In this document: positions 30,517 to 32,894 of the stretch, piece after piece | How positions within the stretch are numbered: position 1 is the stretch's first letter | Layout of the letters: each line of letters begins with the position of its first letter | Assembly: GCA_031257105.1 (NCBI GenBank) | Contig: JAIRPG010000132.1 | Location: forward strand, 1-61,350 | Length of the DNA stretch: 61,350 nt | Direction: 5' to 3' | DNA from: Treponema sp. | GTDB taxonomy: Bacteria; Spirochaetota; Spirochaetia; Treponematales; Breznakiellaceae | Made by a program: the position numbers and the translations under genes | The notes under the pieces: model-generated | Database searches by the model: none | Told to the model about the DNA's origin: nothing | The model's input: only the letters and a program-made list of their open reading frames with translations

Positions 30517-30552
30517 GAACAATTCTACTATCTTTTTCCAGGAGGAAAGAAA

Positions 30553-31880
30553 ATGAAGAAAATAGTGTTGACAATTATGGCTGTTTCCATGTGCGCCGGC
30601 GCAGCCTTTGCCGCCGGTAGCCGGAGCGCTTCCAACTCTACGGGGGGGGGGGGGGGGCTATAGAAGTAACCAACCCCCATTATAAATCGGGCCAGAATGT
30701 CGGCGGTCTCTTTTTCCTGCCCCAGGTTGAGCGGTTCAACCAGAAGTACGCAGGAAAGTACAAGCTCACCATCGAGGAACTGGTTCAGGATATGTACGCC
30801 CCTAAAATGCAGCAACTGAGTCAGCAGGGCAAGCTGCCCGCCCTGGTTGAAGGGGGCGCTTATGAATGGCTCACCGAATTTGTCATCCCGGGTAATATGT
30901 TCGTGGATCTCAAGCCCCTGTTGGACAGCACTCCCGAATTAAGGGCTCTGGCGATTCCGGAAGCGATAGCGTATAACACGGTAAATGGCGGCAAAATTTT
31001 TTCGATCACCTATCCGGTGGTACGGCCTATCGGTCTGTACTACAACCCCAAACTCTACCAGCCTTCCAAGCCCATGTCCCAGATGAGCTGGGAACAGGTT
31101 GCCGCTGAACTGGGGAACAACAAGATCGCCTTTATGACCGGCGAGAACGCCTGGACCACGGTGCTGGTGCTGTCTTCGCTTATCGCCAAAGAACCGGGTG
31201 GCGTTGAATGGCTTGCCTCCGGCGCGAATACCAATCCCCGGCTGACGGATTATAACAACCCCATCATGATCGGCGCGGTTACAAAACTCCAGCAGTTGCT
31301 CCAGAAAAACGCCTCTGCCAATACCCTGGGCGCGGCTTATGCCGATGCCGCCAACAGCTTTATGTCCGCCCGTTCCGCGATTATCGCCAACGGCAGTTGG
31401 ATGATTGGCGATTTCGCCCCGGATGCTCAGGCAAAATGGTCCAACGGGTTTAACGGCGCCGATGTGCGGGCCGACGTATTCCCCGGCAATGTGGCTATCG
31501 GCGGCCCGGGCATCGGCTACAGTTGGTGGATTCCCAACACCGCCACTCCCCAAGAACAGGAACTGGCCAAGGCGTTTATCGCCTTTATCATGTCCCAGGA
31601 CGAGCTTGAACGGTATATGCTGGCCGAAGGCGGCGTTTCTCCCCGCATGACCGCGACCCAGAGCTTCCTGGCTGAACGGGCCAAAAATAAACTGATGGAC
31701 GAATATGTCGGCGCGGTTAAGCCCGACACGATCCTGTCGTACAGTTGGGGCGATGTGATTCCTAATTCGGTTTACGAGACCGAATGGGGACGGCTCCTGC
31801 CGCTGCTGATCAACGGCACCTACACCCCTGCGCGGTTCTGCCAGGAACTGACCATTAAGGCCCAGGAAACCATCCGGTAA
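30553..31880 (+). CDS. Sugar ABC solute-binding protein, frame broken by a G16 tract
   Basis: This is a family-1 solute-binding protein for the permeases that follow. ATG 30553 has AGGAGGA 6 nt upstream and opens a clear signal peptide (MKKIVLTIMAVSMCAGAAFA). After codon 30 the frame runs into 16 consecutive G (30642-30657) and stops at TAG 30661. The rest of the gene, from A-I-E-V-T-N-P to the stop at 31880, is intact in the next frame and includes NMFVDLKPLLDS and GPGIGYSWWIPN. A tract of 17 or 14 G would restore a 442-residue protein, so the gene is either phase-variable and OFF here or carries a sequencing error. It is not a decayed pseudogene, because the body is fully open. Confidence 0.85.
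30642..30657 (+). repeat. Poly-G tract (16 G), slippage site
   Basis: Sixteen uninterrupted G lie 90-105 nt into the binding-protein gene, just after the signal peptide. The next longest G runs I noticed in the window are about seven bases. Confidence 0.95.
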
Positions 31881-31895
31881 ACGGCGTACGGCACA

Positions 31896-32001
31896 GATTA
31901 ACGTGAGCGGCGATACCGCCGCTCGTTATAGGAGTTATCATTAACACTTCGTGTTAATGTCCGATTAACGTGAGCGGCGATACCGCCGCTCGTTATAGGA
32001 G
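31896..32001 (+). repeat. 39-bp direct repeat, each with a hairpin and a ribosome-binding site
   Basis: Identical 39-bp copies at 31896-31934 and 31963-32001 each hold the hairpin GAGCGGCG-ATAC-CGCCGCTC followed by GTTATAGGAG. The second copy provides the ribosome-binding site of the permease at 32007. Between them lies a third hairpin, ATTAACAC-TTC-GTGTTAAT (31940-31958). The group probably sets the ratio of binding protein to permease by stalling exonucleases or tuning initiation. Confidence 0.85.
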
Positions 32002-32006
32002 AAACC

Positions 32007-32894
32007 ATGATGAAAACAGCGGCTATCAGCAGGCTGGAACGCCGGAACCTGCCCTGGATTTACGTTTTCCTGGCCCCTACGCTGATCATGTTCCTCATGT
32101 TCTACCTGTGGCCCATTTTCACCGTGATATACACCAGCTTTACCAAATGGAACGGCATGACCAGCCCCCAATGGACAGGGCTGGTCAACTACCAGCGTCT
32201 TTTTTCCATGAAGAGTTTTCTTATCTCCTTAAAAAATCTGGGGCTTTGGGCGCTGATCGCCGCGGTGTTTCACACCCTCTTCGGCGTTTTGGTGGCCCTG
32301 GCTTTTTTCAAGGCTCCGCCAGGCTGGAAAATCGTCCGCACTGTTTTTATGATCCCCAATGTGATCTCCGGCGCGGCATGGGCAATGATCTACCGGTTCC
32401 TCTTTAATAACGATTTTGGAATCCTCAATAATATCATTAGAATCTTTAACAGAGATTTTAACGTGAACTGGTTTTACGAAAGCCCCGCGGCTTTTTGGGC
32501 CATCACCTTTACCTGGCTTTTCTATGCCGTGGTCATCTCCCTGGTGGTTTTGGCCGACCTCATGGCCATATCCAAAGATGTTCACGAGGCGGCCACTATT
32601 GACGGCGCTTCGGGCTGGCAGGTGATGACCCGCATAGATCTTCCCCTCTGCCGCTTCTCTATCGGCACTTCGGTCATTATGGGGGTAACTTCCCGAATCT
32701 CCATGTACGAGGCCATTGCCCTTACCTCCCGGGGCGGCCCGGGTGACGACACCATGAGTCTTTCGCTGATCCTGGTGAAAAATATTTCCGACTACAACTA
32801 CGGCCTTGCCAACGCCGCCGCAATGGTGATGCTGATCCTGGGCGCCGGAATCATGCTGGCCTGTAACCGGGCCTTCCGCATGAATGATCAGTGA
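32007..32894 (+). CDS. Sugar ABC permease (MalF-like), second system
   Basis: The 295-residue protein has six membrane segments and the EAA loop HEAATIDGASGWQVMTRIDL near residue 193. It forms the pore with the next gene and takes substrate from the G-tract-controlled binding protein. ATG 32010 is an alternative start. AGGAG comes from the second 39-bp repeat. Confidence 0.9.
   Translation: MMKTAAISRLERRNLPWIYVFLAPTLIMFLMFYLWPIFTVIYTSFTKWNGMTSPQWTGLVNYQRLFSMKSFLISLKNLGLWALIAAVFHTLFGVLVALAFFKAPPGWKIVRTVFMIPNVISGAAWAMIYRFLFNNDFGILNNIIRIFNRDFNVNWFYESPAAFWAITFTWLFYAVVISLVVLADLMAISKDVHEAATIDGASGWQVMTRIDLPLCRFSIGTSVIMGVTSRISMYEAIALTSRGGPGDDTMSLSLILVKNISDYNYGLANAAAMVMLILGAGIMLACNRAFRMNDQ

Follow-up and report, generated by a model that had tools for sequence, protein, structure and literature searches.

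Homopolymeric G tracts are known to control nutrient uptake in bacteria, the closest described cases being the Neisseria nutrient receptors hpuAB and hmbR, which are switched by poly-G; G runs of more than 7 are hypermutable in bacteria, with rates of 1e-5 to 1e-2 per division (PMC4235727). In the spirochaete Treponema pallidum, poly-G tracts have been described in the promoters of TP0126 (an OmpW homolog) and of tpr genes (PMC7864442). Coding tracts differ among clones of the Nichols strain, and 24 of the 46 tracts of at least 8 vary, some of them inside genes (PMC10013896). A search of the open-licence literature returned no report of a solute-binding protein made phase-variable by a homopolymeric tract, nor of phase variation via G tracts in termite spirochaetes.

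The locus described here contains 16 consecutive G within the gene of a solute-binding protein. It resembles hpuAB and hmbR in that an in-frame G run of a nutrient-uptake gene shifts the reading frame; however, the Neisseria genes encode outer-membrane receptors of a pathogen whose switching has been shown, whereas here the target is an ABC binding protein of a gut symbiont, the run is longer and switching is predicted from the sequence. T. pallidum is a spirochaete of the same order in which G/C tracts, some of them intragenic, are likewise what varies, but those studied in it are ~7-11 G long and lie mostly upstream of outer-membrane proteins. The tract studied here starts 89 nt after a start codon and thus lies inside the coding region, not in the spacer between -35 and -10 that the TP0126-type run occupies. 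The original prediction called a nutrient-binding target unusual. For the binding protein of an ABC importer this stands, but for nutrient receptors as such hpuAB and hmbR are precedents (PMC4235727).

Reading frames and constraint at the tract

The window, i.e. the whole stretch of 61,350 nt that was analysed, is contig C138 of a draft genome (2.54 Mb in 160 contigs, 86% complete). It contains the following features.

30540..30545, + strand: ribosome-binding site AGGAGG, read directly from the letters
30553..30641, + strand: ATG (30553), signal peptide MKKIVLTIMAVSMCAGAAFA (called by eye) and Ser/Thr linker; layout shared by orthologs
30642..30657, + strand: G16 tract, poly-glycine linker codons, read from the sequence; G5 at the matching site in ortholog L211
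30661..30663, + strand: TAG closing the as-assembled frame to give a 36-residue product; CTATAG directly follows the tract
30660..31880, + strand: mature solute-binding protein, 406 codons plus stop (31878-31880) in the next frame, from PF13416, a structure model and dN/dS
31905..32001, + strand: two identical 30-nt hairpin-forming repeats (31905-31934 and 31972-32001), folding z -4.5
32007..32894, + strand: ABC permease 1, PF00528, 253 of 295 residues identical to L211
32901..33767, + strand: ABC permease 2, PF00528, 235 of 288 residues identical to L211

Direct reading confirmed the arrangement given in the original prediction, with G16 after the signal peptide, a frame closed by TAG at 30661 and the rest of the gene open in the next frame. 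After the tract the three frames remain open for 1, 8 and 406 codons. Because the tract lies early in the reading frame its length sets the frame downstream, and lengths of 2 mod 3 (14, 17) fuse the N-terminal part with the 406-codon frame. Adding one G does yield the predicted 442 residues (17 G), but losing two yields 441 and not 442 (14 G).

At 16 G the tract is well beyond the 7 G above which runs are classed as hypermutable (PMC4235727). The second-longest G/C run of the window is 7, and all nine overlapping matches to 8 G found there fall within this single tract. A first-order Markov model predicts 0.001 G runs of at least 16 in the window, against one observed; shuffled sequences preserve the tract's own GG dinucleotides and therefore provide no test of its rarity. 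Since the tract sits mid-contig with conserved gene sequence on either side, it is not the junk found at contig ends, and a false assembly join across it was ruled out because orthologs match both flanks in the expected order.

The part of the gene downstream of the tract encodes an extracellular solute-binding protein with a carbohydrate-type domain (SBP_bac_8, PF13416; E 4.5e-16, 59.9 bits against a curated cut-off of 27). Structure prediction was poor from 4 sequences and good from 38; the model from 38 homologs has a mean pLDDT of 92, with values <50 only at the first residues, where the poly-glycine lies. In structural alignments the nearest solved folds were chito- and xylo-oligosaccharide-binding proteins (PDB 7eho, 7ehp, 8xba, 3zkk), which at 14-19% identity share the fold and probably the ligand class; we know of no tract in these proteins. 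Two adjacent permease genes (PF00528, BPD_transp_1, found twice) complete the appearance of an ABC importer, and this gene order is kept in G002 and L211. The relatives sharing it are Treponema drafts, taken to be from termite-gut samples judging from their isolate codes. In G002 the ortholog has a LacI regulator and a gene resembling glycoside hydrolases as neighbours; together with the fold neighbours, this neighbourhood suggests a carbohydrate ligand, and the gene product would be the binding protein of an oligosaccharide-type ABC importer. The earlier call of a sugar-type binding protein is thereby upheld by domain match, fold neighbours and downstream permeases.

The 30-nt repeats lie between the binding-protein and permease genes. 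Each forms a strong hairpin followed by an RBS-like AGGAG, and the pair could set the ratio of binding protein to permeases. All other loci fetched for comparison lack these repeats.

Intactness of the downstream gene, the further premise of a switch, was corroborated. Compared with L211, an ortholog of 75% identity, the binding protein has dN 0.184 and dS 1.49 (ratio ~0.12), and the permeases have dN/dS of 0.07-0.08; compared with G002, dN is 0.28 and dS is saturated. None of the 33 columns conserved in at least 90% of 37 homologs is changed, and the 406 codons contain no second frame break. The gene behind the tract is thus intact and under selection, which implies that the break is recent, reversible or a miscount of the run.

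The tract itself has a shallower history. L211 has ACGGGGGTAATTGAAGTAACC where the window has AC-G16-CTATAGAAGTAACC, so that its site reads AC-G5, and 5, like the predicted ON lengths, is 2 mod 3. Three other orthologs have 2-4 G at this site, and more distant homologs have Gly/Ser-rich linkers of variable length. Homolog comparison and the structure model both indicate that the position accepts any in-frame number of glycines. The short run in L211 and the variable linkers together point to G16 as a short run that expanded within a tolerant linker and solely in this lineage. The original prediction had named homologs lacking the tract and showing no length variation as evidence against it, and half of this was found: the four orthologs (65-75% identity) have only 2-5 G, which marks the long tract as a recent lineage-specific acquisition and not a conserved switch.

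Long G tracts in the genome and its relatives

Pattern searches of the draft genome returned 101 G/C runs of at least 8 and 42 of at least 10, about 12 of the latter being poly-G/GC junk at contig ends. About 23 tracts of 13-21 G have ordinary flanks and are mostly intergenic (loci L033-L097). The base preceding the run is C in 22 of 23 long tracts, compared with 20 of 54 runs of 8-9 (p = 8e-7); the long tracts are mostly preceded by AC, with A/T-rich sequence behind, at coding and intergenic sites alike. The tract of the window is one of these ~23, and since the AC 5' boundary is the same in coding and intergenic tracts, it gives no evidence for selection on this gene alone. In this genome and its relatives most tracts have neighbours of diverse function with no enrichment, which fits tolerated mutational expansion equally as well as adaptive switching.

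Elsewhere in the genome, some coding tracts leave their gene in frame and others out of frame. A GDPD gene (contig C102) has 18 G and is out of frame, as is an Fn3-like lipoprotein gene (C89) with 17 G, while a copy of the latter (C110) has 21 G and is in frame. Duplicated tracts differ in length (17/21, 16/11 and 14/15), which in these data comes closest to a length change observed directly. A second binding-protein gene (L058, contig C115) has G16 directly after its lipobox (MKKLLGVLLIPLAMGFFSCNKT) and a frame break further downstream.

Among 59 genomes, the own one included, the pattern used detected a G run of at least 12 in 46. Tract counts ranged from 0 to 106 in genomes of the same family, presumably the Breznakiellaceae (PMC13067680), against 0 to 5 in other families of the order, and lengths were typical of the genome (11-12, 12-13, 14-16, 15-18, ~18 and 18-24). 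A typical length together with a typical preceding base was seen in the own genome and in G010, G022, G009 and G041, the base being A in G009 and G041; short runs had no such pattern. MutL was found in 56 of the 59 genomes. The richest in tracts, G010 (106 matches, 94% complete), is the only nearly complete genome in which MutL was not detectable, a single case that is suggestive of a link between the two. A G15 run in the same genome encodes the linker that joins the IIB domain of a PTS sugar transporter to its IIC domain (L161:1472-3403), in frame as assembled.

Three further observations concern where tracts are placed. A relative, G059, and the two binding-protein genes of the own genome gave rise to the idea that ABC-importer genes are favoured targets; it was rejected, as these genes are not enriched near tracts in comparison with controls taken from the same loci across six genomes (9/114 against 6/117, p=0.43). 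Intergenic tracts in G000 and G009 are enriched, on the G strand, in TATAAT-like letters just after the run; in G000 there are also TTGAC-like letters ahead of it. In 25 of 34 cases (p=0.009) the closest gene start is on the strand that shows the tract as C, so that a TP0126-like promoter at these sites would mostly face away from the nearest gene. A C21 run that opens a contig, 142 nt upstream of the ATG in the L211 ortholog, was considered as a promoter tract and set aside as indistinguishable from the poly-G artefacts common at contig ends there. In G000 and G059 many contigs end in a long G run (e.g. G88 at C49 of G000), often with G/C junk behind it, and these ends are probably dark-cycle sequencing artefacts; tract counts in drafts of this kind therefore need both flanks.

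Slippage and its alternatives

Slippage-driven phase variation accounts best for the G16 tract, and since long G runs are generally hypermutable we hold it to be somewhat favoured by the evidence. According to this model, glycine-linker codons, still AC-G5 in the nearest ortholog, would have grown into a hypermutable run, and replication slippage would then add or remove one or two G. The full exported protein would be made at 14, 17 or 20 G and a stub of ~36 residues at 15, 16 or 18 G, giving a population in which cells with and without the binding protein are mixed. Probably, then, only some cells make it. The permease genes may remain on, the first having its own ribosome-binding site, and the benefit might lie in bet-hedging on a sugar. 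The phase-variation interpretation of the original prediction is thus supported in part: the tract, the frame logic, the intact and selected gene and the hypermutable length speak for it, as do the G5 of matching frame class in L211, the coding tracts of either frame state and the unequal duplicated tracts elsewhere in the genome, and the orthologs without a long tract speak against it. MutL, which the own genome encodes, should lower the slippage rate and also counts against switching.

A miscounted homopolymer would remove the OFF state as an assembly artefact, the true run being mostly an in-frame 17 (or 14) that may still vary. The assembled length might be off by one, with a modal length of 17: short-read accuracy drops at runs of at least 13 and contigs break at poly-G (PMC4235727), poly-G junk is present at contig ends of this draft, and the strong constraint on the gene predicts a mostly ON state. 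The mixture of in-frame and out-of-frame coding tracts in the draft is what real variation would give, although random miscounting would match it too. We regard a miscount as unlikely, and it would alter the assembled state while leaving the hypermutable nature of the run unchanged. That the gene is a recent pseudogene, just lost through a permanent frame break, appears very improbable. It is out of frame as assembled, and the additional break in the tract-bearing gene on C115 indicates that decay near tracts occurs; but here no further lesion is found in 406 codons, conserved columns are unchanged, the constraint resembles that of intact orthologs, and a G16 run is intrinsically reversible.

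RNA polymerase slippage on long G runs is established in general, and G runs may expand wherever the damage is small, in which case transcriptional slippage would leak protein in all cells and there would be no adaptive switch. The tracts form one class throughout the genome, alike in length and boundary base, and most are intergenic with neighbours of unrelated function, as such tolerated noise would have it. DNA length would nevertheless still vary among cells and alter the amount of protein, and tracts within constrained genes would be costly unless part-time expression is acceptable. We consider it distinctly unlikely that tolerated noise is the whole account, and retain slippage-driven phase variation as the best reading.

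Implications for termite-gut treponemes

Poly-G switching of nutrient receptors, and poly-G switching in treponemes, are known already; what is unusual here is the target. If cells do differ randomly in the sugar that they bind, the tract would provide division of labour in the termite gut with a simple genetic switch, and the abilities of each cell would be overstated by its gene content. Independently of this, uncultured termite treponemes are rich in long G tracts. Contig breaks coincide with these tracts, and in draft assemblies they put genuine genes out of frame, so that a function may be wrongly annotated as absent.

Of more interest than this single gene is the family-wide abundance of the tracts, with their genome-typical length and boundary base. 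We tentatively raise the possibility, in which our confidence is low, that termite-gut treponemes diversify their populations, the sugar uptake of single cells included, by means of a genome-wide poly-G set (tens of tracts in each genome, 11-24 nt long, alike in length and boundary base within a genome), such that the switches would serve nutrition and not immune escape.
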